Source of the DNA: Hericium rajendrae | Taxonomy: Eukaryota; Basidiomycota; Agaricomycetes; Russulales; Hericiaceae | Direction: 5' to 3' | Length of the DNA: 64,000 nt | Assembly: GCA_033439255.1 (NCBI GenBank) | Contig: CM065887.1 | Coordinates: 1,612,001 to 1,676,000, forward strand | Part shown: in pieces, positions 37,722-64,000 of the stretch | Layout: each line of letters opens with the position of its first letter | Position numbering within the stretch: position 1 is the first letter of the stretch | Notes under the pieces: generated by a model | What the model was told of the DNA's origin: nothing | The model's input: the letters and a program-made list of their open reading frames with translations, nothing else | The model's database searches: none | Position numbers and translations under genes: made by a program

Positions 37722-38221
37722 AGCCCACTATAGTGGCTTGTTCTCATGAAGTCTTTGTGATGTAACATGTCTCACATGCCCTTCTCCTTCTACCCAGCTT
37801 ACAGATGAGCAGATCACCACGCCAATGTGCAACTTCAGCACAACTGACCTTGACATGCCCAGACTCACAGTTACATTCGGTTGGGTATCCATTTGAAAAC
37901 TGACAAACTGTACGCACAGATGTTCCAGCCATCATGCATCATGTCTTGAGCTGTGCTACATCATTGCGGTGTTCACGACCTCCTTTGTTCTGAACTCACA
38001 TGTTTCGCGCTGTCTCTGTTTGTTCAATAACAATATGCTGCACGCACCAAGCACAATCCTGCTGCCAAGACCGGCAGAGTTAGTGCTCTGCCGTATGTTG
38101 TTGATTCTGTATATACATATATATAACAGTATCAAGGTTCCCCTCGTGCAGAGTAGACTGGAACAAAAAATTACGCCGGGAAATTTGCTCTTTACTGTCG
38201 CATACGCACATTGATCACATC

Positions 38222-38402
38222 AACCGTCCCGGACGGTTACGCAGTGGACAGGGTTGACAAGGTCACCTGGGTGACCGGACCGCATCGTCGACTGTACAGT
38301 GGTAACCGTCCCGGACGGTTACTCACGGTGCAGTGCGCATGCACAGTGCATGTTGGGTTGGGGTTTGGCGATGTACACAGTGACGACCGTCGTGGACGGT
38401 TA
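38222..38402. promoter_or_regulatory. Three 17-bp dyads spaced 82 and 81 bp apart
   Basis: AACCGTCCCGGACGGTT occurs at 38222-38238 and 38304-38320, and a variant (GACCGTCGTGGACGGTT) at 38385-38401. Between them lie other dyads: GGTCACC-TG-GGTGACC at 38261-38276 and GTGCGCATGCAC near 38335. Spacing is close to eight helical turns, so a protein bound at each would face the same side. It sits about 110 bp inside the left edge of the tandem unit. It may be a binding array, a replication or silencing element, or subterminal repeats of an element; its function is unknown. Open frames across it (38211-38487) look spurious. Confidence 0.7.
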
Positions 38403-41400
38403 TTCCGTGCACCATGCGATCATCAAACTCCCAGTAAAAAGTCGGTCGAGTGAGATTGAAGGAGATCAAGTGAGATCAGATGATTAGAACGTGTTCAGGT
38501 CTCACTCGGTAAGTGGCATAATCTCACTCACGTCCGAATCAAAATGAATCAAAACGAATGGTGCATGGAAAATAATTGTGTGCCATGCTTCCAATTTGAT
38601 TTCTAGGTATTATTTCATCGAAGGACATCGAACAGGTACAGAGCATAGTCCGATGGCCGCAAATGAGTCCAGTTCATATCAGAGCGTGGAAATAATCATA
38701 TTTTGGGCCAGAATCGACAATGATCTGAGCAAATCGAAGCAAATCAGAATGTGATCAGCTCCCCAGCGAGACACATCAGAGCAGGATAGTCCTGCCGAAT
38801 CCTTGGACGGACATGCCGCCCTTGCCCATGTCGCCTACCGATGTCGATAAGTAGTCATTTACTGCGCGTGCTGCACAGTAGAGACGAGCTGCTTCCACTT
38901 CAGAAACTCAGTGCAATGTGCTTTCACTTTCCAATAAATGACGTCGGGATGGTCTGCAGCAGTAAGAGGCACGGGAAGGTCATCTGGGCGTGGAAGAGGT
39001 GACGACACTGCGATCGGAGCTCTTGAAATCCCAAGATGGATGCTGAAATGGGGACCTCGTCTTCCTTTGTGACGAATATGCTCCTGTTGTTCATTAACCT
39101 AAATGCAGCTGAAGTTAAGTTATAACTGTAGAAAGAGGTGGTCGTACGTACTTCAGTGTACTGTTTTCAAACTGCACAAGACTTCATCATCCACCTCTCA
39201 TCAGTGAGATATCTTTGATATTCACGTATAATATCATATTTTGTATCTTTTTAACACTTCATTGAAGACTTCATGATTTCTATATCATGCTAAGAAATGA
39301 TGAGAGTTGTGTAACATTCTTAGATCAAATTGTGCATTTCCTTAGAAAAATATGGCCTATAGCTGTCACATTTCAGCCTTTAAGAGCAATTTAGAGAAGA
39401 ACTCAAGGAACTTTATGATAAGTCTGCAGCCATAGATACTCGATTTCTTGTTCATCTTTCAATTTAAATGCTCTCACCAGAAGCACTTCAGTTAGTCTAC
39501 ACTTGCAGAACTTCAATCCTTCTCAGAAGTTGTGAAATTATGAGGCAGTAACTCTCCCTGTCTTTCAGTGTTCTAGCTGCATGTATTTTCTCCAATTGAA
39601 AAGGTAAGTGTCACTTTTCACACCAGCATAAGGTTTTGATGCAGATAACAGGCAGTCAACTTGCTTTGTCAACATCAAGGACATGAATATTTCAGCATTG
39701 CTGAGGGTGGTGTCACCAGCTAACTTCATCTGTCCGAGAGCGCATGGCTACAGATCATTGTGCACATCTCAAATCTAACCAACTCTCTTTGAAAACACCT
39801 TCAAGGTATGTCAGATAGCCTTGCAATGGCAGCATCTCGACAGAAATTTAGAGCTCTTTAGCAAAATGAGACACAATATGCAGTCAGATTTTTAGCTGCT
39901 TGGACTAAGCTGCTTGATGTTGATGACTGACATCATTTACAAATAACCTTTAGAACTTCGAGAAACTTTTTCAGAAAACTGGACCCCAAATAAAATACAA
40001 ATTCATCACTAAACTAAAGAGCTTCACAGATGTGAGTGCAAAAACTATGTATAGATTTCACGGCCCTTCAGGCATCGGCTGGTCTCGTAGAGCAGGCCGT
40101 TTGTTGGGGTTTACCGACAGGCTTAGGAAGGTGAAAAAGTAGTATTTTCATCTCTTTGATATGTTACAAGTAGCTATGAGGTTCGCATAATTGCAGAAAG
40201 GTAGGGTGGAGTTTAAGGCTCAATCTCAAAATAAGCACTATTCACAAGGCCATATACAGGTGTAATGGGGCCTCTGCATCCTTAGCAACATGCCAATGCT
40301 CTATGCAACTAGAAGGAGTGGACTTCTGGGAATGCTGTGAATGTGTCATCATCAGATCAGTTGTTGGATGTGGAAGAAGAGTGGGTGAGATCAAATTGAA
40401 GGCATGTGACATCATCAAAGTGACAAAAGGACACAGGGCAGTACAAATGATATCAGCCTTGTTTGTCATGTGAGGTGCTGATGTGACTGAATTTGTCATA
40501 TGAGGTGCTGATGTGACTGAATGGCACTATCTTTATATGATAAAACGGACATTGTATTTGGCAATGTATGCCTCTGTTTTTACAGTTTTTTTGACCGAAG
40601 GATTGATCATGCCTGAAAAGTAAAGTTAGGAGAGAAAAGAGATGATAATGCTTTACCATTGACTTGCCTCATCCACAAAGTGTCATGAGAGGGTAGGCAA
40701 TGCAAATCTTTTTGTACTGGTGTAGTTTATCACAAAGGTGTTCTAAAATTGGTCGATGGATCAGCATGGAGTCGGTGTGCACTGATGATAACATCAAGAG
40801 CTTTGTGTCCATTGTGGTGCAGGTGGACAACAACAGCAATGCCGCTGATGTAGTCTAGAAAAGCTTGGTCGAGAAAGGGTTCTGGCCAAATGGCCATCAA
40901 TCCTACAGTGTCAGTGAGAAAATGAATGAGGACACTGGCTGTGGTCAATGAGCAGTATATGTCTCTATCATTTGGAGTCCAACAGTCATGATTGGTGCTG
41001 TGGAGGATAAGCTATAAGATAACTGATCCTGATAAAACAGATTCACACTCGTTCAGTTCATGAAGGAACACATTCGTGTGTTTTCTAATGAAAAGGACAA
41101 GCTTTTGGCAGATGAGAGCTGTCAAGAATTGTTTTACATGGATGTGAAAAGTAGATTGAGCATTGTGAATATGAAATACGTCTGACAATGATATGTATTT
41201 AAGAACCATGAAGAAGATGTTGTGCTGATTTATGATGGCATAGACAGAGTACACAGATATAGTTGATAGTGGGTTCTAAGTGCACCTGGTATGCTACAGA
41301 TACTGAGCATGCAATATGTATGAAAGTTCTAAATCTTCTGTCATTGAGTTTATGTTATGTATGCAAGGTTCACATCACCAGTTACTTCACAGAGAAGGCA

Positions 41401-44259
41401 TGTAAAAATACAGTAAAATACAGTAAGTCGAAACACAATTTCTGATGTCAACCTGAAAATTATATGTCTTTCAACATATGCTAAAGTGATATTTTTTCAA
41501 AAATGTTTGCAATGCTGAATTTCATTGAATGATACCATTACATGCTATGCGCAAAAGCTTGAGAGTCAAGGAACTTGTCATACTTCTAACTTTCACCTTT
41601 AAAATCATTTTTGATGATGATGGTGAGTCTGCATAATAGAGGAGAGCTAGCTTTCAGGGCTCAAGAGGTAATTGTGTTGGTATTTTGAGATGCACAGAGG
41701 GATTAGTTGGAGGCATATAAGGAGTAATACCAATCAGATCTAGCAATGTCTTTGTCATAGATGTTGACAACATGATTGATATGGTCTTGTAGACTGAGGT
41801 CATGAAGGTCTTGTTTGTCAATCTCTCCTTTGTTGTTGATGTGCACCATACAGAGATCAACTTGGAGCTTGACATGAAAGCACGTCTGAAATATGTTGCA
41901 GCCCCTCGGGTCAGGATGAATAAATATAGCATTCTATTCTGATTTAAAAAAAGGCTCAGACATAGTTCTCAATTAATGATAGAGTCAGTCATAGTTTTCT
42001 GTTCATGAGTTATGCAAGGACTGACTTAAGAGGAGAAGTAGATAATGAAGGCAAAAGAGATAAATTGGGTTGGTCATTGTAGAAGCTAATATACAAAAAA
42101 CAGAACTACTTTACAGAGCTAAAAAAAAAATAGATTCATAAATGTATTTTGGCTAGATAGTGCCTTCAGAGCCATAGTTGAGAAATTTTATAACTGATTT
42201 ATCTTTACTTTTTGCCAACAATGAGATGTTCTGAAGATAGAAGTATGTTTATCAACCTTCTTTCACCTTGGTTTCGAAAGAGCCAAGTGTAGCTTCAATG
42301 AGGACTGTGTCACCTTCTTGTATGTATGAAGATTTCAGCCTTTTTATGACTGATTTACTTTCATAGGCAGTATAAGCATCAAAGACATTGGAGAACAGTT
42401 GCACTTAATGTTCAAGTTAGCTTGGAGTGCATTGAGCTTGTAAAGAACCAAATATACTACATTTGAACTCAGGCTGCATTTGCAAGTTGTTTGCCAGTGA
42501 GAAGCTCTAATGTCATCACTCTAAGTTGTTTGCTTTATTGTATGGTTGTAAGCACATTTATTCCAGTTTGGAGAGATAAGTAATAATGAACTAGTATCAC
42601 TCTCTGTAAAATCATTGAGAAGTTTTTTTTGCTGACTTGTAGGTGTTGTAAGTGACAGATATGACTAAAATTGCAGCACATTTAGCAAGCATGTCTTTGT
42701 CATTATAGAACTATTGACTAGCAACAATGCCAGCAATTCCAAAATACCACTGCTGTTTTGTCATCAGCCTGACAGAGAAAAGGCATCTTGATCTCAAGCA
42801 CCAGTAGCCACTGGAGATCACTGGGAGGCTTTCTGACTACAAACATATGCTTTTCTGGCTGCTGCCAGTTCAAGAAGGTTTTTAACTACCTTTGACTGTA
42901 TAAGTATTTAGAAATCCTGAAGATCAGCAAGGTTCGTACTGCATGACTACTGGAGTATGGTAGGTGTAGATTATGATTTCAATTTTGTTGATAAAAAATG
43001 TGTTCCTCTCAGTGCCATCAGATGAAGAAAGGGTAAGTGGGGTTTCCGATCATGCATTTGGTCTAAAATTTTAGTTAATATAGGATGAGATGGTACAGAA
43101 GGAAAGAATATGTACGCCTTTCCTTTTCCTTTGATAGTGCTGCTGAAGGGAGCATCATCACTCTCATTTCTTTTGGCTGTTTTAGCATCAGGCTGTTCTG
43201 GATGTTTCTGTTCTTTGTATTTGAGAGCCATATTTGTATAAATATAGGTAGATAAAAAGATGAAAAATTAGCATGACAAAAATGAAGATAATGTGGTTGA
43301 AGATAAGCTTACAAGCAGAGAATAGGAGAAGACTGAGAGGTCTGGGGAAGAAAAGTCTAGAAATATCTGGATTGAGGTCCATCAATACCATGCATGGGTA
43401 AGATGTGTCAGCAATGCAGGCATAGATTATCAAAGTCATGAAGAATGGAGATATGCATGGACAGTGTGCATGAGGTGAGGTGAGGTGTTAAAAGGGATGA
43501 GGTGTCAATATGTCGAAGACAAGAATGAGAGCCTTACTCGATAATGAGCGAGACTCTCGAGATCAGTAGATACAATGAAAATACAAGCTTTTTGGACTCA
43601 CCTAAGCACCTTCTGACTCTTATAACACATTTTAGCTTTGAATAATGGAGAATGTGATGCTGAAGGAGGAGGAGGAGAGAGATGCAAAAGAGGGTGGAGC
43701 AAGAGAGTGAGAGCAACCAAGTCATGTGATGCACCTTCTGTACTTCAGCCACCTATGAGTTCAAATGTTTTTGAGGTTGATAAATCAAATCAAATTGCAT
43801 AAAACAGAAAAACAAAATGCATAAAACTGATGTCCATTGATATAATATGATTATATGAGTTATATATCTAGCAATGAGATTGTAAGCTACTGAAAAACAA
43901 AATAAAGTTAGTAGCATCTAGCACTTAGCCTCTGTTGTGATGCCTAGCAATGTATAGCTCAATGCTTAGCAGCTACATTTCAGACCTCACTTGCAATGTC
44001 TATTTAAAGCTTGTGTGATGTGTGTCCTCTTTTTCTCTTTAACCCCCACCATCTCTCACTTTCATGGCCTTTCTTCATTTTTTACAATTGTTTACTAAGT
44101 TTTCAAGATAAAGTCTCTTATATTTCTTATGTTTTTAACTAGTGTTCTTATGTTTCTAATTAATTTATACTTTTTTGTAGTCATAGCAAGACTTGTATAT
44201 TGTGAATATAGCTTGATACTCAGTCTAAGCTTTGCTGATTGATTGGTTGTTTGAAGCAA

Positions 44260-44575
44260 ATTCTTTTGCAATTTAAATATTCAATAAGCTGGCTGATAAG
44301 GTACATTAAAAAATATGTTGTTCAGATTCTTTTGCAATTTAGATATCAAATAAGCTGGCTAATAAAGTACATTGAAAAACATATTGTGCAGATTCTTCTG
44401 CAATTCAAATATCAGATAAGCTGGCTAATGAGATATATTAATATTGTACAGATTCTTCTGTGATTCAAATATCAGATAAGCTGGCTGATGAGATATATTA
44501 ATATTGTATAGAATCTTTTGCAATTTAGATATCGGATAAGCTGACTAATGAGATACATTAGAAAATATATTATCT
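44260..44575. repeat. Minisatellite, five units of about 60-66 bp, copy 1
   Basis: Five head-to-tail units begin near 44260, 44326, 44392, 44452 and 44512. Each has ATTCTTTTGCAATTTA-like and ATAAGCTGGCTRATRAG words and ends in a CAG- or TAG-like trinucleotide. The first two units are about 66 bp and the last three about 60 bp. An ORF at 44239-44463 (ILLQFKYQISWL repeats) is simply its translation. Confidence 0.85.
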
Positions 44576-44722
44576 TAGTGAGTATTATCAATAATGATTG
44601 AACTGTAGAAAATTGAGTAATTAATATAAGATACAATATGATGGAGTGATATTATGATCATAAATAACATTGTTTTGAAGTAGATAAATAAGTCCTATGC
44701 AAATAGTCAGTATTATAATAAT

Positions 44723-45299
44723 TAGTAAATGGCATAGGTATGGGTAATCTACAGTGGGTCATGGGTATGGGTATCATGGGTATGGGTATGGGTCAGCCTT
44801 ATGCAACCCATGAAAAACTCATACCCATATCATGGGTCATGAGTTTTTCTATATTGAGAATGATTAGTTCAAAGTACATTATCAAGATGCAAGCCATACT
44901 ATATACTAAATCAAGCAACAATCAGACTAATGTATTAAGGGTGGCTAATATGGCAGATGCTCTAAAAGGTAATAAAATAGATATTAAAGAGTCTGAGATG
45001 AAAAAGAAATACAATATTATGAAACTTTTTTGACTTTTTTGACTGATCAGTGTTAACTGCTACAATGTTATTGATGTGTGTCTGCTCATATTGAGATATT
45101 TATGGCATAACAAGACTATAGTCTCTCAATACATGTTACAACCCTTGAGTAACCCATAAACCCACAGCTACCTATGAACCCATATCCTATCCATACCCAA
45201 CCCACAGAAAACCCATACCCACAGCATGGGTGTGGGTTTTGATAGGTATGAGTATGGGTCAGCTCAAAAGTACCCAAAAGTTACCCATGCCATTCACTG
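44723..45299. mobile_element. hAT-like MITE, 577 bp, copy 1
   Basis: The left end TAGTAAATGGCATAGGTA and right end (reverse complement) CAGTGAATGGCATGGGTA are inverted repeats with few mismatches. The flanks ATAATAAT (44715-44722) and ATGATAAT (45300-45307) look like an 8-bp target duplication with one change. CAGTG-type ends and 8-bp duplications are hAT features. Subterminal GGGTATGGGTA words are abundant in both orientations (plus near 44735-44795, minus near 45165-45285), as in many hAT elements. It has no transposase, so it is non-autonomous. A frame at 44740-45033 is open but is repeat translation at its start. Confidence 0.6.
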
Positions 45300-47480
45300 A
45301 TGATAATAGGCATACTTGGATCTTTTAAAAGATTGCATTGATTTTGTATTAAGATTGTAGTAAAAAAAATATAATAATATAGAACTAAATATTATTTGTA
45401 TTTCAAAAATTTTTACAGTTCAATTTGAAAGCTAGAATGCAATAACTATAAGTGAAATTTTTTTTTAAATGCACAATTTGTTTTGAGAGTATTATATATC
45501 TCTTCTCATTTTTTAATATAATATATAAATTATAAAAATTTCAATGAAGTGTAAAAGAAAAGAAAATATGATATTATATATAAATGTCAAAGATATCTCA
45601 TTGAATACATCTTTAGAAGAGATGCTATAATAGTCTTCTCCCCTACAATAATATTTTCTATGTGAGAATTGAAGATTAAATTTAGATTTATCAAAGAATG
45701 TAATCTGCTATTAATCTTTTAGAGTTTAATTAACATGTAACTTAGACTATTCTTTCAGATAGCTATTAATCTTTCCAAAGCACGGATTATATCTTCAAAT
45801 TCAGTGACATTTATTTCATCAGAAATATTCAATTCTACATTTGTTGGGCCCTCTAACTCATACTTATGGTGAGCCTGCAAGCATCCTTTTACATTTGCAA
45901 TGATCACAGATAGATTTTGATGTGACTTTAATCTTTGACTGAGCCTCTCCATCTGCAGGAAGATTGGTAATCTGAAGTAAGATGTTTTCAAATGTGAAGA
46001 ACTGCTTTTCAATGTGCTGATTAGACTCTCAATGACTATACTACCCTCCACATAGACTTGTTCCACTATTACTGTACTTTTAAAAAGCTTGAACTATTGT
46101 GAAGATTTCTAATTTCTGTCATTGTTAACATGTACTGAAATATTGTGAATAATATTGACAAGAAGATGATAGAAGAAATATTCTTAGAAATGATTTTCAA
46201 GTTCAAATGCATGGTGGACCAATCTAGTTCTTGGAAAAAGTCAAGCAAGGTGACCTGAAGTGTACATATGCTATTGTTTGTGCTATATTCATTTTTATTA
46301 TTCGAGCAGCATTTGTCATCATCTTTAATCTTACTGACATCAGAAGATAAGAATGATGAAGATGTGAAGCTCAGTGCAGAAGTTCGATGCAGTGTTTCAA
46401 TTACAAGAACCTGAGATCAAGGTAGAGGTCAAGATGGAGGAATTGTAAGAGTGATCAGCACAGCGTACAGTACTTACTACAAAATATATGGAGGATTGTT
46501 TCTCGAGTGTACCAGAACAAAGTGGACGCTTGATTCAGAATGCTCAAAGGGTGCAATTCGGTATTAAATCAGCCAGCGAACTCAGTCTTTGGAGTCTTCG
46601 AGCCATGCGACATTCAATATATCGGAACAGAAACAAGAATATAAGACTTGGACGTGTCTAGAGAGCAAATCCGGTGGCAAAAGCAATGATATATGACATC
46701 GACCAACAGTCTCCCAAGCACAGTCTCACCCACAAGTGGGCTTCCTAAAAACAGCCGCTTGCAGTCCTCAGGTCAGTCGATATTTGTGCTTAATAGGCGG
46801 GAGAGCAGCAGCTATGCAGCCACGACAAGCCCAGTATAGAATGCGATGCCATACCTATTCTGCCAGCCAGTGATAGCCATAGGGCTCAGGAAGCTGAGTA
46901 CGGAGAGTGTGCAGAGAGGAATGGTGTGGCGGCTGAAGAGAATGGCCATGAAATGCATGTCAAACCCAGTGAGAATTGGCACGAATGAAATTGAATGAGA
47001 TCAAATGTCAGGATTTGGCTGGTCCGAACTTCAAACGAAATTGAATGAAATCGAACTGATATTGAACACCTGTCCAAGAAAGGAAATTGCAGCTGTGTTT
47101 TACCCACGAAACATGACGACAATGCATCATCAGTGCATCAAACACCTGTTGCTTGCTTGCATGCTCGCATTCGACGTCTCGCGAGCATGCTCAGCTCTTC
47201 GTGCCCACATATTCCTGTCCGCTGTTGGCTCTGTTTGTGCCAACTTGAATGATGCCATCACCATATTGCCTCCCATCACATATAGGTAGCGTGTCGGTCT
47301 CTTTGACTTAGCAGAATTCTCCTTCCCCTCTCCTCCCTTTCCTCCGAACATCCACTTGTCACAGGCCCCTTCCTTCTTCCCAACTCGAAAACCATTCTGA
47401 GATATTCAATTGCAGACATGTTTATGGTAATCTCTCATATGTTTTGCACAGTCCCCCTCTAAAGCAACACTGCCACAGCC

Positions 47481-47888
47481 AACTACCACAGTCGAACATG
47501 CCTGGGCCACCGCCAAAAACCTTCTGGCACCTGCTGCCTGCCCTAGAGCCTTCAGTAGTCAAGTCCAAGCACACCCTCAAGGTAGGTACATTCACCTGTA
47601 TTTTGCATCCACTCCCACCCATGCACACAATCGTTTCACTTCATGCGCAACTTGATGCCTCAGAAAGCATCGGGTAATGCTCTCAGGTTTGCAGGCACAA
47701 TGTGTACTTCATGTCGGTTGTTCTGCCTAAACACCGTCATGCATTATGGAAATGGACATGCCATATGTGAGAGCACAGCTCTGAGTCCAGTGGAGCTGCA
47801 GACGAGCAGGCTGCCAACTGCACGCTGGCCTGCATCGATCATCGGCAGCGAAGATTCGCAGAGCCTGCTGATGCTTTCCTCTGCCTGA
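47481..47888 (+). pseudogene. Spliced-looking coding piece inside the hAT-like element
   Basis: A possible exon from 47498 (MPGPPPKTFWHLLPALEPSVVKS) ends at a good donor (AAG/gtaggt, 47581) and an acceptor (cctcag at about 47663) leads into KASGNALRFAGTMCTSCRLFC. The Cys pair and FW-x-x-L start could be a zinc-finger N terminus such as those of transposases, but this is too little to assign. It is likely a relic. The same sequence is in copy 2 at 60591-60998. Confidence 0.25.
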
Positions 47889-49189
47889 AGTTGTGATCGG
47901 AAAGCCTCCACGCCCTTAGGCTGCGATCAGCAATGCAGTTGAGATACGATTTCTGAGATACTGTATCTTTTCTGACATGAGAAGGTACTGGTATTAGATC
48001 GCGGTTCAGTGGCTATGCTGCTTACAGTGATGCCGGTGGCATGTTAGCCATGCCGGGCCAATGCTGATCCCAATCCATCTAAATCCATAGTGCACCCCCT
48101 TGGCACCCCCAGTTCTTCATATTTACTGTGCTTGCTATGCCTCTTGTACAACCTCAAAAATCTACTGATTAACTTGAAAAATAAAATAAATATGATTCTC
48201 CTGTTTTGTTTTGCCAAGAAACATCCATGAGATACTTTTTTACTGATCTTGTAGTTGTAGAGGCCGAACCGTGCTGTGCGGCACTTACTGATTATTTGTT
48301 CTTCGAAATGCCACTCAGTTTGGATTTTGCAGATTTTGGTGCAGCCGAACAGATCAGTATCAAATCGGCAGTCGAGTTATAGGTGGGTATAGTTTGGACC
48401 GAAAAAGAAATAATTAATTCAAAAAGAATTAAATTAACTCGAGGCAGCATGCCTCACAGGTTCTGCACATTTTTTCGGTTACACTCGATGTTCGCATGCT
48501 CAGAGGTGCTTAGCATAGCCATGATGCAGACAATGCATGTATGTTTTCATCAAGAATTTGCCATTTTCCAGATGTAATCAATATTTTTCTGGCCGCCTTC
48601 GGTGGCACACATTTTGTGATGGTGCATTATGTGACCTCTCGCTCAGTCAGATTTCCAGCTAAGAAAACATGTGAACATGTCATGTCTATCATCCATGTTA
48701 AATTAGCATGTTCGAAGCTTGATATTTGCAAAACTGCTCCCACTCGAGATGAACGCTTGATGCAACACTGATACATCATTTCTGTGCTTATAGCAGCATT
48801 TGTGTACAATCTGGGAGCATATAACTCAAGATTCATGTCTTGCTATTAATTTCTCGACACACTAAGGCTGCATAAAACATGGCATTTGCCCGAGAGCCAG
48901 AGAGCATGTGCCAGGCCATATCACCATCGAATATTTTAAATTTACGAGCTTCGCGTAGCTCTGCACGTCTCGAAAAAATTCATTCCTCATGCGTTCGTCT
49001 GGGAAACTCAAAACACCAAGTTACATGGCGTGCGGAAACGTGCTGCGGGCTACAGAACATTCGTTCGCAGCTGCTGCAAAGTGCAGCAGCAATGACTAAG
49101 CTGGCTCCTGCCGAAAAAGGCACCACTCTTCGAAGTCCGTTACAATTCGAAGTCCGCTAGAATTCAAACTCAGCTAGAGCTCGCTCAGT

Positions 49190-50480
49190 GCCCACCTATG
49201 GCCCGACCGCCATCAAATCTGGTTGCGAGAGCAGTCCCAGGTAAGATTCGTCTATATATGGTAGTCAACCGCAATCTGGTTGCGCTCAACCGCGTTGCCG
49301 ATCGCAGCCTTATATTCTCACCATCGCCTTGGGCGCCACGCTTTATCGCTCTATCTTCGACTTGCATGATTGTACCGCGATCGTGCGCCGCCTGCTTCGC
49401 GAACGTCGTATCCTCGACCGCCTCGGGAAGTTCGCATTTGACGTGACCGAGATTTTCCTTGGGTGCCCTCTCTACATTCATCCCTCGGCTCAGACCGCAG
49501 TGCGTTGCCGCCTCTGCTTGATCCCCGATCCCTCACACTCACTTCGTGTCTCTACAGGACACTCCCCAGTAATGATCTCTGCACCTGGTTTTCCCATGTC
49601 CGCGGTTTTACCGACTAGGTTTTCCCCGCATGGGTTTTTCATCAGGTCTGCTCTCTAACAGTTGTGGCTTTCCCTTCCGCAGCATACATACTGTCCGTCC
49701 TCGTCTCTCGTGACTGGGACCCATCATACTGGGTAGTGATCAAAGTAGTTACATGATATGAGTGTGCGTAACGTAGTCCTGTGCCTGTCTACGTAGTACG
49801 CGCCACCGCTTTGTTCCGCCATGGGACCGCTGCGGAATACACTTCCTTCCTTCCTTCCTTCCTTCCACCCTGATTCAGTGTCCGCACATCGACACATGCC
49901 CTGCTGTGCACGAGCCCCTTCTGGCGCTGCTCCTCGACCCACGTCTCTCGTACGTCATACCTTGGATGTCACCCCTGAGCAGCACGCCATTCGCCGACAC
50001 ACGCATGGAACTGACTATCAAGTTGAGTGTCGTGAAGGCGTAGCCTGCGGCCTTGCTCTTCGCGCATCCCGCCGTCAGTGCGCGCAGCATTTTGGTCTTC
50101 TCCGCATTCGGCAAGTTGACGCGCCCAATGTCCGCGAACAGCTTCAGCTTCAGCTGCAGCATCACGCGCCGCTCGCCTTTGTACCCCCGCAACGGTCACT
50201 TCGGTGAGTGGTTCTCCAAGCTTAGTGTCGTGAGGTTCTCCCTCTTGCCTAGCGCAAGTGGCACGTCCTCCGCGATCTGTGTGTCTTCGAGCCCGTCCAG
50301 AGACAGCATGAGCGGCTCCGTCCGCTTCCTTCTTGCCTGCCTCCCGCATATACTAACATGCTCCGTGTCCCGATGCATGTCTCATCGCGTGCGGAATCCT
50401 CGATGGAAAAGCTAGGTGAAGCCCCAGCACTGATTTTAGGCGAGTTAGTGTTCGCTATCCATCCCAGGCGCATACTGATT
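49190..50480 (-). pseudogene. GC-rich, CpG-normal insert with LRR-like coding pieces
   Basis: This part of the hAT-like element differs sharply in base make-up from its surroundings and resembles host genic DNA. Minus-strand pieces such as SLDGLEDTQIAEDVPLALGK with ENLTTLSLENHSP (50196-50378) look like leucine-rich/RNI-type repeats, and KLKLFADIGRVNLPNAEKTK with LRALTAGCAKSKAAGYAF (49875-50192) looks helical. They are in different frames with no convincing complete gene. The likely reading is a host gene fragment captured by the element (Pack-type), but no parent gene is in the window. Confidence 0.3.
49844..49867. repeat. (CTTC)n microsatellite, about six units
   Basis: An uninterrupted CTTC tetranucleotide run. 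It is identical in length in copy 2 at about 62955, which is notable because such runs change length quickly, and fits a very recent duplication. Confidence 0.9.
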
Positions 50481-51331: not shown

Positions 51332-51512
51332 AACCGTCCCGGACGGTTACGCAGTGGACAGGGTTGACAAGGTCACCTGGGTGACCGGACCGCATCGTCG
51401 ACTGTACAGTGGTAACCGTCCCGGACGGTTACTCACGGTGCAGTGCGCATGCACAGTGCATGTTGGGTTGGGGTTTGGCGATGTACACAGTGACGACCGT
51501 CGTGGACGGTTA
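51332..51512. promoter_or_regulatory. Dyad array, copy 2
   Basis: Identical to the array at 38222-38402, with the same 82- and 81-bp spacing. Confidence 0.7.
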
Positions 51513-54500
51513 TTCCGTGCACCATGCGATCATCAAACTCCCAGTAAAAAGTCGGTCGAGTGAGATTGAAGGAGATCAAGTGAGATCAGATGATTAGAAC
51601 GTGTTCAGGTCTCACTCGGTAAGTGGCATAATCTCACTCACGTCCGAATCAAAATGAATCAAAACGAATGGTGCATGGAAAATAATTGTGTGCCATGCTT
51701 CCAATTTGATTTCTAGGTATTATTTCATCGAAGGACATCGAACAGGTACAGAGCATAGTCCGATGGCCGCAAATGAGTCCAGTTCATATCAGAGCGTGGA
51801 AATAATCATATTTTGGGCCAGAATCGACAATGATCTGAGCAAATCGAAGCAAATCAGAATGTGATCAGCTCCCCAGCGAGACACATCAGAGCAGGATAGT
51901 CCTGCCGAATCCTTGGACGGACATGCCGCCCTTGCCCATGTCGCCTACCGATGTCGATAAGTAGTCATTTACTGCGCGTGCTGCACAGTAGAGACGAGCT
52001 GCTTCCACTTCAGAAACTCAGTGCAATGTGCTTTCACTTTCCAATAAATGACGTCGGGATGGTCTGCAGCAGTAAGAGGCACGGGAAGGTCATCTGGGCG
52101 TGGAAGAGGTGACGACACTGCGATCGGAGCTCTTGAAATCCCAAGATGGATGCTGAAATGGGGACCTCGTCTTCCTTTGTGACGAATATGCTCCTGTTGT
52201 TCATTAACCTAAATGCAGCTGAAGTTAAGTTATAACTGTAGAAAGAGGTGGTCGTACGTACTTCAGTGTACTGTTTTCAAACTGCACAAGACTTCATCAT
52301 CCACCTCTCATCAGTGAGATATCTTTGATATTCACGTATAATATCATATTTTGTATCTTTTTAACACTTCATTGAAGACTTCATGATTTCTATATCATGC
52401 TAAGAAATGATGAGAGTTGTGTAACATTCTTAGATCAAATTGTGCATTTCCTTAGAAAAATATGGCCTATAGCTGTCACATTTCAGCCTTTAAGAGCAAT
52501 TTAGAGAAGAACTCAAGGAACTTTATGATAAGTCTGCAGCCATAGATACTCGATTTCTTGTTCATCTTTCAATTTAAATGCTCTCACCAGAAGCACTTCA
52601 GTTAGTCTACACTTGCAGAACTTCAATCCTTCTCAGAAGTTGTGAAATTATGAGGCAGTAACTCTCCCTGTCTTTCAGTGTTCTAGCTGCATGTATTTTC
52701 TCCAATTGAAAAGGTAAGTGTCACTTTTCACACCAGCATAAGGTTTTGATGCAGATAACAGGCAGTCAACTTGCTTTGTCAACATCAAGGACATGAATAT
52801 TTCAGCATTGCTGAGGGTGGTGTCACCAGCTAACTTCATCTGTCCGAGAGCGCATGGCTACAGATCATTGTGCACATCTCAAATCTAACCAACTCTCTTT
52901 GAAAACACCTTCAAGGTATGTCAGATAGCCTTGCAATGGCAGCATCTCGACAGAAATTTAGAGCTCTTTAGCAAAATGAGACACAATATGCAGTCAGATT
53001 TTTAGCTGCTTGGACTAAGCTGCTTGATGTTGATGACTGACATCATTTACAAATAACCTTTAGAACTTCGAGAAACTTTTTCAGAAAACTGGACCCCAAA
53101 TAAAATACAAATTCATCACTAAACTAAAGAGCTTCACAGATGTGAGTGCAAAAACTATGTATAGATTTCACGGCCCTTCAGGCATCGGCTGGTCTCGTAG
53201 AGCAGGCCGTTTGTTGGGGTTTACCGACAGGCTTAGGAAGGTGAAAAAGTAGTATTTTCATCTCTTTGATATGTTACAAGTAGCTATGAGGTTCGCATAA
53301 TTGCAGAAAGGTAGGGTGGAGTTTAAGGCTCAATCTCAAAATAAGCACTATTCACAAGGCCATATACAGGTGTAATGGGGCCTCTGCATCCTTAGCAACA
53401 TGCCAATGCTCTATGCAACTAGAAGGAGTGGACTTCTGGGAATGCTGTGAATGTGTCATCATCAGATCAGTTGTTGGATGTGGAAGAAGAGTGGGTGAGA
53501 TCAAATTGAAGGCATGTGACATCATCAAAGTGACAAAAGGACACAGGGCAGTACAAATGATATCAGCCTTGTTTGTCATGTGAGGTGCTGATGTGACTGA
53601 ATTTGTCATATGAGGTGCTGATGTGACTGAATGGCACTATCTTTATATGATAAAACGGACATTGTATTTGGCAATGTATGCCTCTGTTTTTACAGTTTTT
53701 TTGACCGAAGGATTGATCATGCCTGAAAAGTAAAGTTAGGAGAGAAAAGAGATGATAATGCTTTACCATTGACTTGCCTCATCCACAAAGTGTCATGAGA
53801 GGGTAGGCAATGCAAATCTTTTTGTACTGGTGTAGTTTATCACAAAGGTGTTCTAAAATTGGTCGATGGATCAGCATGGAGTCGGTGTGCACTGATGATA
53901 ACATCAAGAGCTTTGTGTCCATTGTGGTGCAGGTGGACAACAACAGCAATGCCGCTGATGTAGTCTAGAAAAGCTTGGTCGAGAAAGGGTTCTGGCCAAA
54001 TGGCCATCAATCCTACAGTGTCAGTGAGAAAATGAATGAGGACACTGGCTGTGGTCAATGAGCAGTATATGTCTCTATCATTTGGAGTCCAACAGTCATG
54101 ATTGGTGCTGTGGAGGATAAGCTATAAGATAACTGATCCTGATAAAACAGATTCACACTCGTTCAGTTCATGAAGGAACACATTCGTGTGTTTTCTAATG
54201 AAAAGGACAAGCTTTTGGCAGATGAGAGCTGTCAAGAATTGTTTTACATGGATGTGAAAAGTAGATTGAGCATTGTGAATATGAAATACGTCTGACAATG
54301 ATATGTATTTAAGAACCATGAAGAAGATGTTGTGCTGATTTATGATGGCATAGACAGAGTACACAGATATAGTTGATAGTGGGTTCTAAGTGCACCTGGT
54401 ATGCTACAGATACTGAGCATGCAATATGTATGAAAGTTCTAAATCTTCTGTCATTGAGTTTATGTTATGTATGCAAGGTTCACATCACCAGTTACTTCAC

Positions 54501-57369
54501 AGAGAAGGCATGTAAAAATACAGTAAAATACAGTAAGTCGAAACACAATTTCTGATGTCAACCTGAAAATTATATGTCTTTCAACATATGCTAAAGTGAT
54601 ATTTTTTCAAAAATGTTTGCAATGCTGAATTTCATTGAATGATACCATTACATGCTATGCGCAAAAGCTTGAGAGTCAAGGAACTTGTCATACTTCTAAC
54701 TTTCACCTTTAAAATCATTTTTGATGATGATGGTGAGTCTGCATAATAGAGGAGAGCTAGCTTTCAGGGCTCAAGAGGTGATTGTGTTGGTATTTTGAGA
54801 TGTACAGAGGGATTAGTTGGAGGCATATAAGGAGTAATACCAATCAGATCTAGCAATGTCTTTGTCATAGATGTTGACAACATGATTGATATGGTCTTGT
54901 AGACTGAGGTCATGAAGGTCTTGTTTGTCAATCTCTCCTTTGTTGTTGATGTGCACCATACAGAGATCAACTTGGAGCTTGACATGAAAGCACGTCTGAA
55001 ATATGTTGCAGCCCCTCGGGTCAGGATGAATAAATATAGCATTCTATTCTGATTTAAAAAAAGGCTCAGACATAGTTCTCAATTAATGATAGAGTCAGTC
55101 ATAGTTTTCTGTTCATGAGTTATGCAAGGACTGACTTAAGAGGAGAAGTAGATAATGAAGGCAAAAGAGATAAATTGGGTTGGTCATTGTAGAAGCTAAT
55201 ATACAAAAAACAGAACTACTTTACAGAGCTAAAAAAAAAATAGATTCATAAATGTATTTTGGCTAGATAGTGCCTTCAGAGCCATAGTTGAGAAATTTTA
55301 TAACTGATTTATCTTTACTTTTTGCCAACAATGAGATGTTCTGAAGATAGAAGTATGTTTATCAACCTTCTTTCACCTTGGTTTCGAAAGAGCCAAGTGT
55401 AGCTTCAATGAGGACTGTGTCACCTTCTTGTATGTATGAAGATTTCAGCCTTTTTATGACTGATTTACTTTCATAGGCAGTATAAGCATCAAAGACATTG
55501 GAGAACAGTTGCACTTAATGTTCAAGTTAGCTTGGAGTGCATTGAGCTTGTAAAGAACCAAATATACTACATTTGAACTCAGGCTGCATTTGCAAGTTGT
55601 TTGCCAGTGAGAAGCTCTAATGTCATCACTCTAAGTTGTTTGCTTTATTGTATGGTTGTAAGCACATTTATTCCAGTTTGGAGAGATAAGTAATAATGAA
55701 CTAGTATCACTCTCTGTAAAATCATTGAGAAGTTTTTTTTGCTGACTTGTAGGTGTTGTAAGTGACAGATATGACTAAAATTGCAGCACATTTAGCAAGC
55801 ATGTCTTTGTCATTATAGAACTATTGACTAGCAACAATACCAGCAATTCCAAAATACCACTGCTGTTTTGTCATCAGCCTGACAGAGAAAAGGCATCTTG
55901 ATCTCAAGCACCAGTAGCCACTGGAGATCACTGGGAGGCTTTCTGACTACAAACATATGCTTTTCTGGCTGCTGCCAGTTCAAGAAGGTTTTTAACTACC
56001 TTTGACTGTATAAGTATTTAGAAATCCTGAAGATCAGCAAGGTTCGTACTGCATGACTACTGGAGTATGGTAGGTGTAGATTATGATTTCAATTTTGTTG
56101 ATAAAAAATGTGTTCCTCTCAGTGCCATCAGATGAAGAAAGGGTAAGTGGGGTTTCCGATCATGCATTTGGTCTAAAATTTTAGTTAATATAGGATGAGA
56201 TGGTACAGAAGGAAAGAATATGTACGCCTTTCCTTTTCCTTTGATAGTGCTGCTGAAGGGAGCATCATCACTCTCATTTCTTTTGGCTGTTTTAGCATCA
56301 GGCTGTTCTGGATGTTTCTGTTCTTTGTATTTGAGAGCCATATTTGTATAAATATAGGTAGATAAAAAGATGAAAAATTAGCATGACAAAAATGAAGATA
56401 ATGTGGTTGAAGATAAGCTTACAAGCAGAGAATAGGAGAAGACTGAGAGGTCTGGGGAAGAAAAGTCTAGAAATATCTGGATTGAGGTCCATCAATACCA
56501 TGCATGGGTAAGATGTGTCAGCAATGCAGGCATAGATTATCAAAGTCATGAAGAATGGAGATATGCATGGACAGTGTGCATGAGGTGAGGTGAGGTGTTA
56601 AAAGGGATGAGGTGTCAATATGTCGAAGACAAGAATGAGAGCCTTACTCGATAATGAGCGAGACTCTCGAGATCAGTAGATACAATGAAAATACAAGCTT
56701 TTTGGACTCACCTAAGCACCTTCTGACTCTTATAACACATTTTAGCTTTGAATAATGGAGAATGTGATGCTGAAGGAGGAGGAGGAGAGAGATGCAAAAG
56801 AGGGTGGAGCAAGAGAGTGAGAGCAACCAAGTCATGTGATGCACCTTCTGTACTTCAGCCACCTATGAGTTCAAATGTTTTTGAGGTTGATAAATCAAAT
56901 CAAATTGCATAAAACAGAAAAACAAAATGCATAAAACTGATGTCCATTGATATAATATGATTATATGAGTTATATATCTAGCAATGAGATTGTAAGCTAC
57001 TGAAAAACAAAATAAAGTTAGTAGCATCTAGCACTTAGCCTCTGTTGTGATGCCTAGCAATGTATAGCTCAATGCTTAGCAGCTACATTTCAGACCTCAC
57101 TTGCAATGTCTATTTAAAGCTTGTGTGATGTGTGTCCTCTTTTTCTCTTTAACCCCCACCATCTCTCACTTTCATGGCCTTTCTTCATTTTTTACAATTG
57201 TTTACTAAGTTTTCAAGATAAAGTCTCTTATATTTCTTATGTTTTTAACTAGTGTTCTTATGTTTCTAATTAATTTATACTTTTTTGTAGTCATAGCAAG
57301 ACTTGTATATTGTGAATATAGCTTGATACTCAGTCTAAGCTTTGCTGATTGATTGGTTGTTTGAAGCAA

Positions 57370-57685
57370 ATTCTTTTGCAATTTAAATATTCAATAAGCT
57401 GGCTGATAAGGTACATTAAAAAATATGTTGTTCAGATTCTTTTGCAATTTAGATATCAAATAAGCTGGCTAATAAAGTACATTGAAAAACATATTGTGCA
57501 GATTCTTCTGCAATTCAAATATCAGATAAGCTGGCTAATGAGATATATTAATATTGTACAGATTCTTCTGTGATTCAAATATCAGATAAGCTGGCTGATG
57601 AGATATATTAATATTGTATAGAATCTTTTGCAATTTAGATATCGGATAAGCTGACTAATGAGATACATTAGAAAATATATTATCT
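57370..57685. repeat. Minisatellite, copy 2
   Basis: Five units as in copy 1, with no change in unit number. Confidence 0.85.
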
Positions 57686-57832
57686 TAGTGAGTATTATCA
57701 ATAATGATTGAACTGTAGAAAATTGAGTAATTAATATAAGATACAATATGATGGAGTGATATTATGATCATAAATAACATTGTTTTGAAGTAGATAAATA
57801 AGTCCTATGCAAATAGTCAGTATTATAATAAT

Positions 57833-58409
57833 TAGTAAATGGCATAGGTATGGGTAATCTACAGTGGGTCATGGGTATGGGTATCATGGGTATGGGTATG
57901 GGTCAGCCTTATGCAACCCATGAAAAACTCATACCCATATCATGGGTCATGAGTTTTTCTATATTGAGAATGATTAGTTCAAAGTACATTATCAAGATGC
58001 AAGCCATACTATATACTAAATCAAGCAACAATCAGACTAATGTATTAAGGGTGGCTAATATGGCAGATGCTCTAAAAGGTAATAAAATAGATATTAAAGA
58101 GTCTGAGATGAAAAAGAAATACAATATTATGAAACTTTTTTGACTTTTTTGACTGATCAGTGTTAACTGCTACAATGTTATTGATGTGTGTCTGCTCATA
58201 TTGAGATATTTATGGCATAACAAGACTATAGTCTCTCAATACATGTTACAACCCTTGAGTAACCCATAAACCCACAGCTACCTATGAACCCATATCCTAT
58301 CCATACCCAACCCACAGAAAACCCATACCCACAGCATGGGTGTGGGTTTTGATAGGTATGAGTATGGGTCAGCTCAAAAGTACCCAAAAGTTACCCATGC
58401 CATTCACTG
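57833..58409. mobile_element. hAT-like MITE, copy 2
   Basis: Identical to 44723-45299, including both flanking octamers. Confidence 0.6.
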
Positions 58410-60075
58410 ATGATAATAGGCATACTTGGATCTTTTAAAAGATTGCATTGATTTTGTATTAAGATTGTAGTAAAAAAAATATAATAATATAGAACTAAAT
58501 ATTATTTGTATTTCAAAAATTTTTACAGTTCAATTTGAAAGCTAGAATGCAATAACTATAAGTGAAATTTTTTTTTAAATGCACAATTTGTTTTGAGAGT
58601 ATTATATATCTCTTCTCATTTTTTAATATAATATATAAATTATAAAAATTTCAATGAAGTGTAAAAGAAAAGAAAATATGATATTATATATAAATGTCAA
58701 AGATATCTCATTGAATACATCTTTAGAAGAGATGCTATAATAGTCTTCTCCCCTACAATAATATTTTCTATGTGAGAATTGAAGATTAAATTTAGATTTA
58801 TCAAAGAATGTAATCTGCTATTAATCTTTTAGAGTTTAATTAACATGTAACTTAGACTATTCTTTCAGATAGCTATTAATCTTTCCAAAGCACGGATTAT
58901 ATCTTCAAATTCAGTGACATTTATTTCATCAGAAATATTCAATTCTACATTTGTTGGGCCCTCTAACTCATACTTATGGTGAGCCTGCAAGCATCCTTTT
59001 ACATTTGCAATGATCACAGATAGATTTTGATGTGACTTTAATCTTTGACTGAGCCTCTCCATCTGCAGGAAGATTGGTAATCTGAAGTAAGATGTTTTCA
59101 AATGTGAAGAACTGCTTTTCAATGTGCTGATTAGACTCTCAATGACTATACTACCCTCCACATAGACTTGTTCCACTATTACTGTACTTTTAAAAAGCTT
59201 GAACTATTGTGAAGATTTCTAATTTCTGTCATTGTTAACATGTACTGAAATATTGTGAATAATATTGACAAGAAGATGATAGAAGAAATATTCTTAGAAA
59301 TGATTTTCAAGTTCAAATGCATGGTGGACCAATCTAGTTCTTGGAAAAAGTCAAGCAAGGTGACCTGAAGTGTACATATGCTATTGTTTGTGCTATATTC
59401 ATTTTTATTATTCGAGCAGCATTTGTCATCATCTTTAATCTTACTGACATCAGAAGATAAGAATGATGAAGATGTGAAGCTCAGTGCAGAAGTTCGATGC
59501 AGTGTTTCAATTACAAGAACCTGAGATCAAGGTAGAGGTCAAGATGGAGGAATTGTAAGAGTGATCAGCACAGCGTACAGTACTTACTACAAAATATATG
59601 GAGGATTGTTTCTCGAGTGTACCAGAACAAAGTGGACGCTTGATTCAGAATGCTCAAAGGGTGCAATTCGGTATTAAATCAGCCAGCGAACTCAGTCTTT
59701 GGAGTCTTCGAGCCATGCGACATTCAATATATCGGAACAGAAACAAGAATATAAGACTTGGACGTGTCTAGAGAGCAAATCCGGTGGCAAAAGCAATGAT
59801 ATATGACATCGACCAACAGTCTCCCAAGCACAGTCTCACCCACAAGTGGGCTTCCTAAAAACAGCCGCTTGCAGTCCTCAGGTCAGTCGATATTTGTGCT
59901 TAATAGGCGGGAGAGCAGCAGCTATGCAGCCACGACAAGCCCAGTATAGAATGCGATGCCATACCTATTCTGCCAGCCAGTGATAGCCATAGGGCTCAGG
60001 AAGCTGAGTACGGAGAGTGTGCAGAGAGGAATGGTGTGGCGGCTGAAGAGAATGGCCATGAAATGCATGTCAAAC

Positions 60076-63000
60076 CCAGTGAGAATTGGCACGAATGAAA
60101 TTGAATGAGATCAAATGTCAGGATTTGGCTGGTCCGAACTTCAAACGAAATTGAATGAAATCGAACTGATATTGAACACCTGTCCAAGAAAGGAAATTGC
60201 AGCTGTGTTTTACCCACGAAACATGACGACAATGCATCATCAGTGCATCAAACACCTGTTGCTTGCTTGCATGCTCGCATTCGACGTCTCGCGAGCATGC
60301 TCAGCTCTTCGTGCCCACATATTCCTGTCCGCTGTTGGCTCTGTTTGTGCCAACTTGAATGATGCCATCACCATATTGCCTCCCATCACATATAGGTAGC
60401 GTGTCGGTCTCTTTGACTTAGCAGAATTCTCCTTCCCCTCTCCTCCCTTTCCTCCGAACATCCACTTGTCACAGGCCCCTTCCTTCTTCCCAACTCGAAA
60501 ACCATTCTGAGATATTCAATTGCAGACATGTTTATGGTAATCTCTCATATGTTTTGCACAGTCCCCCTCTAAAGCAATACTGCCACAGCCAACTACCACA
60601 GTCGAACATGCCTGGGCCACCGCCAAAAACCTTCTGGCACCTGCTGCCTGCCCTAGAGCCTTCAGTAGTCAAGTCCAAGCACACCCTCAAGGTAGGTACA
60701 TTCACCTGTATTTTGCATCCACTCCCACCCATGCACACAATCGTTTCACTTCATGCGCAACTTGATGCCTCAGAAAGCATCGGGTAATGCTCTCAGGTTT
60801 GCAGGCACAATGTGTACTTCATGTCGGTTGTTCTGCCTAAACACCGTCATGCATTATGGAAATGGACATGCCATATGTGAGAGCACAGCTCTGAGTCCAG
60901 TGGAGCTGCAGACGAGCAGGCTGCCAACTGCACGCTGGCCTGCATCGATCATCGGCAGCGAAGATTCGCAGAGCCTGCTGATGCTTTCCTCTGCCTGAAG
61001 TTGTGATCGGAAAGCCTCCACGCCCTTAGGCTGCGATCAGCAATGCAGTTGAGATACGATTTCTGAGATACTGTATCTTTTCTGACATGAGAAGGTACTG
61101 GTATTAGATCGCGGTTCAGTGGCTATGCTGCTTACAGTGATGCCGGTGGCATGTTAGCCATGCCGGGCCAATGCTGATCCCAATCCATCTAAATCCATAG
61201 TGCACCCCCTTGGCACCCCCAGTTCTTCATATTTACTGTGCTTGCTATGCCTCTTGTACAACCTCAAAAATCTACTGATTAACTTGAAAAATAAAATAAA
61301 TATGATTCTCCTGTTTTGTTTTGCCAAGAAACATCCATGAGATACTTTTTTACTGATCTTGTAGTTGTAGAGGCCGAACCGTGCTGTGCGGCACTTACTG
61401 ATTATTTGTTCTTCGAAATGCCACTCAGTTTGGATTTTGCAGATTTTGGTGCAGCCGAACAGATCAGTATCAAATCGGCAGTCGAGTTATAGGTGGGTAT
61501 AGTTTGGACCGAAAAAGAAATAATTAATTCAAAAAGAATTAAATTAACTCGAGGCAGCATGCCTCACAGGTTCTGCACATTTTTTCGGTTACACTCGATG
61601 TTCGCATGCTCAGAGGTGCTTAGCATAGCCATGATGCAGACAATGCATGTATGTTTTCATCAAGAATTTGCCATTTTCCAGATGTAATCAATATTTTTCT
61701 GGCCGCCTTCGGTGGCACACATTTTGTGATGGTGCATTATGTGACCTCTCGCTCAGTCAGATTTCCAGCTAAGAAAACATGTGAACATGTCATGTCTATC
61801 ATCCATGTTAAATTAGCATGTTCGAAGCTTGATATTTGCAAAACTGCTCCCACTCGAGATGAACGCTTGATGCAACACTGATACATCATTTCTGTGCTTA
61901 TAGCAGCATTTGTGTACAATCTGGGAGCATATAACTCAAGATTCATGTCTTGCTATTAATTTCTCGACACACTAAGGCTGCATAAAACATGGCATTTGCC
62001 CGAGAGCCAGAGAGCATGTGCCAGGCCATATCACCATCGAATATTTTAAATTTACGAGCTTCGCGTAGCTCTGCACGTCTCGAAAAAATTCATTCCTCAT
62101 GCGTTCGTCTGGGAAACTCAAAACACCAAGTTACATGGCGTGCGGAAACGTGCTGCGGGCTACAGAACATTCGTTCGCAGCTGCTGCAAAGTGCAGCAGC
62201 AATGACTAAGCGTGGCTCCTGCCGAAAAAGGCACCACTCTTCGAAGTCCGTTACAATTCGAAGTCCGCTAGAATTCAAACTCAGCTAGAGCTCGCTCAGT
62301 GCCCACCTATGGCCCGACCGCCATCAAATCTGGTTGCGAGAGCAGTCCCAGGTAAGATTCGTCTATATATGGTAGTCAACCGCAATCTGGTTGCGCTCAA
62401 CCGCGTTGCCGATCGCAGCCTTATATTCTCACCATCGCCTTGGGCGCCACGCTTTATCGCTCTATCTTCGACTTGCATGATTGTACCGCGATCGTGCGCC
62501 GCCTGCTTCGCGAACGTCGTATCCTCGACCGCCTCGGGAAGTTCGCATTTGACGTGACCGAGATTTTCCTTGGGTGCCCTCTCTACATTCATCCCTCGGC
62601 TCAGACCGCAGTGCGTTGCCGCCTCTGCTTGATCCCCGATCCCTCACACTCACTTCGTGTCTCTACAGGACACTCCCCAGTAATGATCTCTGCACCTGGT
62701 TTTCCCATGTCCGCGGTTTTACCGACTAGGTTTTCCCCGCATGGGTTTTTCATCAGGTCTGCTCTCTAACAGTTGTGGCTTTCCCTTCCGCAGCATACAT
62801 ACTGTCCGTCCTCGTCTCTCGTGACTGGGACCCATCATACTGGGTAGTGATCAAAGTAGTTACATGATATGAGTGTGCGTAACGTAGTCCTGTGCCTGTC
62901 TACGTAGTACGCGCCACCGCTTTGTTCCGCCATGGGACCGCTGCGGAATACACTTCCTTCCTTCCTTCCTTCCTTCCACCCTGATTCAGTGTCCGCACAT

Positions 63001-63949
63001 CGACACATGCCCTGCTGTGCACGAGCCCCTTCTGGCGCTGCTCCTCGACCCACGTCTCTCGTACGTCATACCTTGGATGTCACCCCTGAGCAGCACGCCA
63101 TTCGCCGACACACGCATGGAACTGACTATCAAGTTGAGTGTCGTGAAGGCGTAGCCTGCGGCCTTGCTCTTCGCGCATCCCGCCGTCAGTGCGCGCAGCA
63201 TTTTGGTCTTCTCCGCATTCGGCAAGTTGACGCGCCCAATGTCCGCGAACAGCTTCAGCTTCAGCTGCAGCATCACGCGCCGCTCGCCTTTGTACCCCCG
63301 CAACGGTCACTTCGGTGAGTGGTTCTCCAAGCTTAGTGTCGTGAGGTTCTCCCTCTTGCCTAGCGCAAGTGGCACGTCCTCCGCGATCTGTGTGTCTTCG
63401 AGCCCGTCCAGAGACAGCATGAGCGGCTCCGTCCGCTTCCTTCTTGCCTGCCTCCCGCATATACTAACATGCTCCGTGTCCCGATGCATGTCTCATCGCG
63501 TGCGGAATCCTCGATGGAAAAGCTAGGTGAAGCCCCAGCACTGATTTTAGGCGAGTTAGTGTTCGCTATCCATCCCAGGCGCATACTGATTTTGTCTTTA
63601 GTCTAAGTCTTGCAGGCTACATGACTCTGTCAATGGCGACGGACCACTGCAGACCACAGCGATGCTGGCAGGAGTGGCTCAGATTGCATCGAACGAGATC
63701 GAATAGTTCTAGTAGCTACAAACAAAATATGTACCTCAAATTGAATATATTCAACTACTACTGCACCACCGACCTGATTCGATGTGATTCGAAATCGGCC
63801 TAAAGAGGACCGATGTCAATCGATGTGCTTCGCTATGCTCCGACGCGACATCGAATGACATCGATATATAGTCCAAAAGTTCGAATGAGATCGAAGTCGA
63901 CGCTGACATTCGATATCATTCGATCTCATTCGCGCCGATTCTCACTGGG
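60076..63949. mobile_element. hAT-like DNA transposon, copy 2
   Basis: Same as 46966-50838 with one substitution (60578) and one inserted G (62212), hence 3,874 bp. Flanked by TGTCAAAC at 60068-60075 and 63950-63957. Confidence 0.75.
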
Positions 63950-64000
63950 TGTCAAACTTGATGTCCTCAGCTCGATCCTGGTGACAGATCAGCATCACGA

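Follow-up and report, generated by a model that had tools for sequence, protein, structure and literature searches.

The copies of tandem segmental duplications evolve in concert, by unequal crossing-over and gene conversion. Duplications that arise by template switching are also described under the name fork stalling and template switching (FoSTeS). Non-recurrent tandem duplications with templated insertions are ascribed to microhomology-mediated break-induced replication (MMBIR) in the excerpted text of PMC8421209. In yeast, palindrome-induced breaks have hairpin-capped ends that are opened by MRX-Sae2 (excerpt of PMC7999016), and in Ganoderma sinense, CpG methylation of transposons and CpG-directed mutation have been described (excerpt of PMC4457147). 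Here, we analyze a tandem array in a stretch of 64,000 nucleotides from Hericium rajendrae, referred to as the window, which corresponds to positions 1612001-1676000 of contig C10 (CM065887.1) in a genome of 46.77 Mb and 19 contigs. Coordinates above 64000 continue the window numbering along the contig; 1612000 has to be added to obtain the C10 position. The array occupies 1.65-1.70 Mb of C10, which is 2.31 Mb long; this position does not support a subtelomeric location, which an earlier note on this DNA had considered. We favor, as the probable explanation, a tandem segmental duplication of nested dead transposons that was born by repair or a template switch at a palindrome and was later evened out by homologous recombination. 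The underlying event is of a known kind, and the duplication is probably older and more complex than first described.

Comparison of the window with itself revealed one long direct repeat, 38113-50889 versus 51223-64000, with four mismatches and one gap over 12,778 bp. When the adjoining contig sequence was included, the repeat extended to 38113-54191 versus 51223-67301, which corresponds to a period of 13,110-13,111 bp and 2.23 copies without interruption. The copies and the parts of the unit are as follows.

38113-51222, forward strand: unit copy 1, 13,110 bp, from the self-comparison
51223-64333, forward strand: unit copy 2, 13,111 bp, the last 333 bp lying past the window, to C10:1676333
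38113-39288, forward strand: unit part D, CpG-normal; unit positions 147-535 have a 91% relative at C10:2051000
39289-40057, forward strand: first part of family B, 78% to C2:817121-817910
40058-41073, forward strand: part F, for which no relative was found outside the array (8 of 8 candidates scored)
41074-44195, forward strand: part E, CpG observed/expected 0.14, with a 97-98% copy in copy 3
44196-51189, forward strand: family B resumed, with nested insertions and relatives in the genome

Beyond the window, at 64334, a third copy begins. Thus, the near-identical 13.1-kb head-to-tail duplication of the earlier note, with its roughly five differences in 12.8 kb, is present in the assembly and is larger than first read; the array does not close at the window end (38113-64000), since copy 2 and the third copy continue on the contig. 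Copies 1 and 2 differ by four transitions (unit positions 3558, 3581, 4617, and 9356) and a 1-bp indel (unit position 10990), a distance of 0.03% (95% interval 0.008-0.078%). All four substitutions are at CpA, which has a chance of about 0.02 if every C:G transition is equally likely. Three of them lie in E and could be polarised by copy 3; all three are derived changes from G:C to A:T (C-to-T). This pattern looks more like mutation than random error. Each unit contains approximately 345 CpGs (690 when the C in CpG is counted on both strands), and not a single CpG transition separates copies 1 and 2. Either the last exchange was too recent, or there has been no CpG-directed mutation since.

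In the search of the genome with the unit, 39 of 196 candidates were scored and the array's own copies were unlisted, so that its counts are lower bounds. The part of the unit left of E, i.e., D, the first B part, and F, is here called X (X1 to X3 in the three copies). Full-length X was found at three places, all on C10 (8 of 8 candidates scored), and unit positions 7771-9788 and 11750-13110 occur at full length just twice in the genome, only on C10; the other stretches right of E were covered by the search with the whole unit. With two copies and a partial one, the array does not deserve the term 'satellite-like' that had been proposed for it. We also considered X as a transposon, or as a prior flanking repeat behind unequal crossing-over, and rejected both, because X is composite and full-length only in the array; its parts have diverged relatives elsewhere (C2, C10, and C11).

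The history of the array is best read from the third copy. X3 is identical to the other copies for 2,938 bp and stops at 67298. Position 67299 is the 5' end of a long terminal repeat (LTR) family, and the LTR ends at 81674. In the search for this family (40 of 291 candidates scored), 13 other matches covered at least 1.6 kb, and nine copies were fetched. All nine share the 5' end, beginning TGTCGTGAACAAAACC, and eight have a CACGACA 3' end after 2.78-2.87 kb, giving LTR ends of the form TGTCGTG...CACGACA. Three of the nine have a common left flank, interpreted as internal sequence of a full element, and the rest have differing flanks; one (L057) shows a clear 4-bp target duplication. In copy 3, the flanks form a 4-bp target duplication, TTGT and TCGT, one base apart, and copies 1 and 2 represent the empty site, with a single TCGT at unit positions 2962-2965. 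A full LTR retrotransposon was discarded, as no second LTR or direct repeat was found within 67299-81674; the insertion is thus a solo LTR with nested insertions of 1.5 kb and 10 kb in its interior. The stretch C10:1682989-1692990, inside the solo LTR, is an element of about 10 kb with 614-bp terminal inverted repeats that are 90% alike.

E of copy 3 follows directly after the LTR, at 81675-87138, and is itself split by an insertion of 2.3 kb, whose 9-bp target duplication agrees at 7 of 9 bases.

C10:1693675-1694511 and 1696843-1699138: E of copy 3, right of the solo LTR, 97-98% to part E

Compared with copy 1, it is substituted at 63 and gapped at 4 of about 3,120 positions (2.0%). X3, with one substitution in 2,961 bp, differs sharply from this value (Fisher p 1.3e-17). 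The boundary between identical and diverged sequence inside copy 3 is abrupt, with 27 bp and the LTR between the two stretches. In unit positions 1-2938, none of the 78 CpGs differ, and copy 3 has changes at both CpGs of the 27 bp before the LTR. One of these two, the second, falls within the target duplication and is intact in the right-hand copy of that duplication. If E is a third copy and not an independent insertion, the copies are not all equally young, because copy 3 differs by 2.0% in E and copies 1 and 2 by 0.03%, a distance about 66 times lower. A search with the first 2.37 kb of E (40 of 96 candidates scored) gave no match besides copy 3, which is therefore probably of local origin and not a chance insertion. 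Of the three options left by the earlier note (recent duplication, homogenisation, or a duplicate made by the assembly), the 63 differences in about 3,120 positions beside none in 2,938 bp point to homogenisation, with an older duplication followed by recent homologous exchange.

Copy 3 leaves the unit after unit position 6085, at the E/B boundary. Inspection by eye of 60 bases indicated that the sequence beyond this point resembles an E-family member on C18, followed by other elements; by the same inspection, E of copies 1 and 2, unlike that of copy 3, is truncated and joined to B. A simple one-step tandem duplication was ruled out, since the right end stops within the third unit. The 53 transitions between copies 1 and 3 fall on 20 of 497 CpA, 15 of 445 CpT, 10 of 159 CpC, and 6 of 28 CpG sites, with two unassigned. 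An excess at CpA as a mark of repeat-induced point mutation was therefore dismissed, as the site counts give no CpA preference.

The second line of evidence is the junction between units, which leads back to a palindrome 391 bp left of the array.

37575-37721, no strand: perfect palindrome, 147 bp, with 73-bp arms and a 1-nt spacer
37651-37693, forward strand: right-arm stretch recurring at the junctions, starting 3 nt from the centre (37648) and ending in ATACATA
51190-51222, forward strand: unit junction, 33 bp of palindrome arm with TTC missing; B ends at 51189

The palindrome is the sole inverted repeat of at least 35 bp with arms within 400 bp in positions 1-38112 of the window and folds into a single hairpin (-94.1 kcal/mol, z -26.6). 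Elsewhere in the genome, just 40 bp of it occur, at the two unit junctions (query 37400-38112, 4 of 4 candidates scored). These consist of the 33 bp of the junction and the first 7 bp of the next unit, which together match the right arm without TTC. The motif ATACATA occurs at 37687 and again at 38113, where the unit starts, and the copied stretch joins the next unit at this motif. The microhomology thus amounts to 7 bp on one side and to 0-1 bp on the other. From position 51189 on, the two C2 relatives of B carry on differently. The junction sequence that precedes copy 3 is the same as that before copy 2; most simply, one of the two was copied from the other. We rejected a later insertion with a 7-bp duplication as the source of the 426 bp that separate the two ATACATA copies on the left side of X1, because the palindrome symmetry extends 28 bp into them. 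The junction is a scar; we attribute it to a break at the hairpin tip or to a template switch.

In the scar, the unit end is joined to palindrome-arm sequence, which in turn adjoins, at the 7-bp microhomology, the unit start that lies 426 bp to the right. As the proposed mechanism, either a break at the hairpin tip could have been end-joined to the unit end, with the 426 bp lost between the ATACATA copies, or a repair polymerase could have switched template twice, in an MMBIR-like manner. In the simplest reading, the duplication would have arisen long ago, one copy would later have received the LTR, and the copies would recently have exchanged sequence without passing the LTR. Misaligned chromatids may have undergone gene conversion or unequal exchange, which rendered copies 1 and 2 identical to each other and to copy 3 left of the LTR. 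The oldest duplication is taken to be old because the copies 1 and 3 diverge so much more in E than copies 1 and 2, and the recent exchange is deduced from how abruptly the divergence rises from zero to 2%. As 2% means one difference per 50 bp, the exchange would have ended within about 150 bp of the LTR, by our own arithmetic. Recent homologous exchange that ended close to the LTR is hence the most likely reason for the near-identity of the copies.

Three points weigh against this account. The number of identical units is known from the assembly only. It is possible that the old copy 3 was never complete, given that it stops at unit position 6085 and that unit positions 7771-9788 and 11750-13110 occur at full length only twice; the old event may then have been a separate duplication. 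Finally, the lack of differences in X3 could result from consensus polishing that pulled copy 3 toward copies 1 and 2.

Long-read errors are dominated by indels. The four substitutions between copies 1 and 2, all of them transitions at CpA and three of them derived C-to-T changes, are unlike such errors and speak against the idea that the true locus has one full unit plus the partial third, the second unit being an assembly artefact or present in only one nucleus of a dikaryotic or diploid sample. Five differences in 13.1 kb are within reach of consensus error or a small haplotype difference, and the occurrence of full-length X only at its three C10 places indicates that the assembly shows one haplotype there. 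The palindrome-derived scar, however, requires at least one real copy of the X2 type, and a false duplication would not invent it. This weakens the assembly option, which we regard as unlikely but still a serious candidate; the number of identical copies is still open to assembly error. The succession of palindrome scar, LTR flanked by a target duplication, and diverged E looks like real history; the second identical unit could be an assembly error. A different course of events would have all copies recent: amplification through the palindrome junction (XY-XY-X...), then a homologous deletion between the last F and an independent, 2%-diverged F-E insertion downstream, with neither an old duplication nor homogenisation. 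It accounts together for the identical X1, X2, and X3, the change at the end of F, and the absence of unit sequence after E in copy 3. It also fits the way in which E of copy 3 runs into C18-like E-family sequence and E of copies 1 and 2 is cut short at B. The single other match of the first 2.37 kb of E (40 of 96 candidates scored), however, lies next to X3 in the expected order and orientation, which makes a chance independent insertion unlikely, and part F has no match elsewhere. We have therefore rated this course lower and consider it quite improbable.

The array could also serve as a structural satellite at a centromere or pericentromere, kept and homogenised for its role there. An excerpt of PMC10817607 describes predicted centromeres of Ganoderma as repeat-rich and low in GC, with sizes of 30-210 kb. 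A repeat element lies right of the array at C10:1699100-1704999, and its relatives are mostly 93-99% alike (40 of 560 candidates scored, as for all results with this element). They cluster in zones of some contigs, for example C5 at 1.04-1.65 Mb, C9 at 1.69-1.87 Mb, and C8 mostly at 1.60-1.72 Mb, and on C10 they are found at 1.70 and 1.78 Mb. These zones may be centromeric, with the element as a possible centromere marker, and the array may be centromere-proximal. The element also occurs outside the zones, with outliers on C8 (for example at 0.13 Mb), C1 (for example at 0.07 and 4.19 Mb), C11, and C19. The array itself has two copies and a partial one, the parts tested have no further full-length copy, and the SMC3 gene lies about 28 kb to the left. 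A satellite role is thus very improbable in our judgment, and the preferred explanation remains a palindrome-born duplication evened out by recombination. Most likely, the array has no function of its own.

Judged from the genome search and from fetched relatives, the unit is a nest of remnants of dead mobile elements. Insertions have broken up family B, whose relatives at two C2 locations are 78-88% identical; the insertions include F plus E at 40058-44195 and the following ones.

44723-45298: nested insertion in B, a 576-bp element; the empty site was read
46958-50845: nested insertion in B with terminal inverted repeats and further insertions inside; the empty site was read
47915-49320: nested insertion in B, within 46958-50845
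48367-49211: nested insertion in B, inside 47915-49320; the empty site was read

Thirteen copies of the 576-bp element, full or partial, were fetched and are 89-95% identical. In a scan of 10 open-frame pieces, taken from the 69 frames of at least 60 aa listed for the unit, none reached the Pfam cut-off, and the open reading frame at 49821-50207 had no Pfam match at E 0.001. One sub-threshold Rhomboid_N match (E 0.059) was taken as chance. Among these 10 pieces and the one open reading frame, no gene was recognised in the unit. A separate observation concerns paired repeat matches on two small contigs, C17:109845-110880 and C18:8784-9815. They have equal 676-bp spacing and near-equal scores, as if one duplicated stretch were common to both.

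The CpG observed/expected ratio is 1.11 in the first 36 kb of the window. Within the unit, it is 0.975 in part D (38113-39288), 0.00-0.46 over 39289-46957, 0.54-0.57 over 46958-48366, 0.87-1.18 in four segments of 48367-50845, and 0.70 in the last 344 bp of B. Hence, the description of the unit as CpG-stripped applies to its middle (39289-48366, 0.00-0.57) but not to its ends. C5-methyltransferase domains are present in the genome (five matches above the Pfam cut-off at four places, one with an internal stop codon), which makes the loss of methylated CpG a likely cause of the decay.

The neighborhood of the array is in agreement with the earlier note in that SMC3 is present: the best PDB matches of window positions 9355-10203 are SMC3 (E 2.7e-47), and an SMC hinge domain is found at 9355-9612. 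Just three open frames of at least 300 aa occur in the first 38 kb, which suggests intron-rich genes. Two neighboring minus-strand open frames of 479 and 369 aa lie at 1740-4297, the second of which is proline-rich. The window holds no Rfam family at the gathering threshold.

Near-identity of copies is usually taken as a sign of youth. Here, the third copy, cut by the LTR, suggests that identity tells the time of the last exchange rather than of the duplication, and it marks roughly where the exchange stopped. The palindrome scar, in turn, gives the junction a concrete and testable origin. More tentatively, and in our view improbably, the short perfect palindrome might be a permanently fragile site from which direct tandem duplications arise in fungal heterochromatin, with an array that, even in CpG-decayed and transposon-rich surroundings, keeps exchanging and changing copy number and a solo LTR that acts as a heterology barrier, freezing copy 3 as a dated outgroup. 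If this were true, the approximately 345 CpGs per unit without a transition would mean that the duplication escaped repeat-induced CpG mutation. The effect on the organism is probably nil.

The locus shares with concerted evolution that the copies of the array are more similar than their age allows and that identity ends sharply near a large heterology; unlike the known cases, it has only about two copies and consists of transposon debris, not of genes or satellites. It resembles Ganoderma sinense, as far as the excerpt of PMC4457147 describes it, in the CpG-poor, low-GC transposon remnants and in the C5-methyltransferase domains found in the genome here, but no CpG transition separates copies 1 and 2. 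With the MMBIR duplications in the excerpt of PMC8421209, it has in common a short junction stretch copied from a nearby template and the 7-bp microhomology on one side. The template here, in contrast, is the arm of a perfect palindrome, with the copy starting at its centre, and what is seen is a fixed scar, not a repair assay, with 0-1 bp of microhomology on the other side. As in the palindrome-induced breaks of yeast, a perfect palindrome (73-bp arms) is involved here, and the breakpoint lies 3 nt from its centre; the product described in the excerpt of PMC7999016 is a large palindromic duplication, whereas the product found here is a direct tandem duplication.

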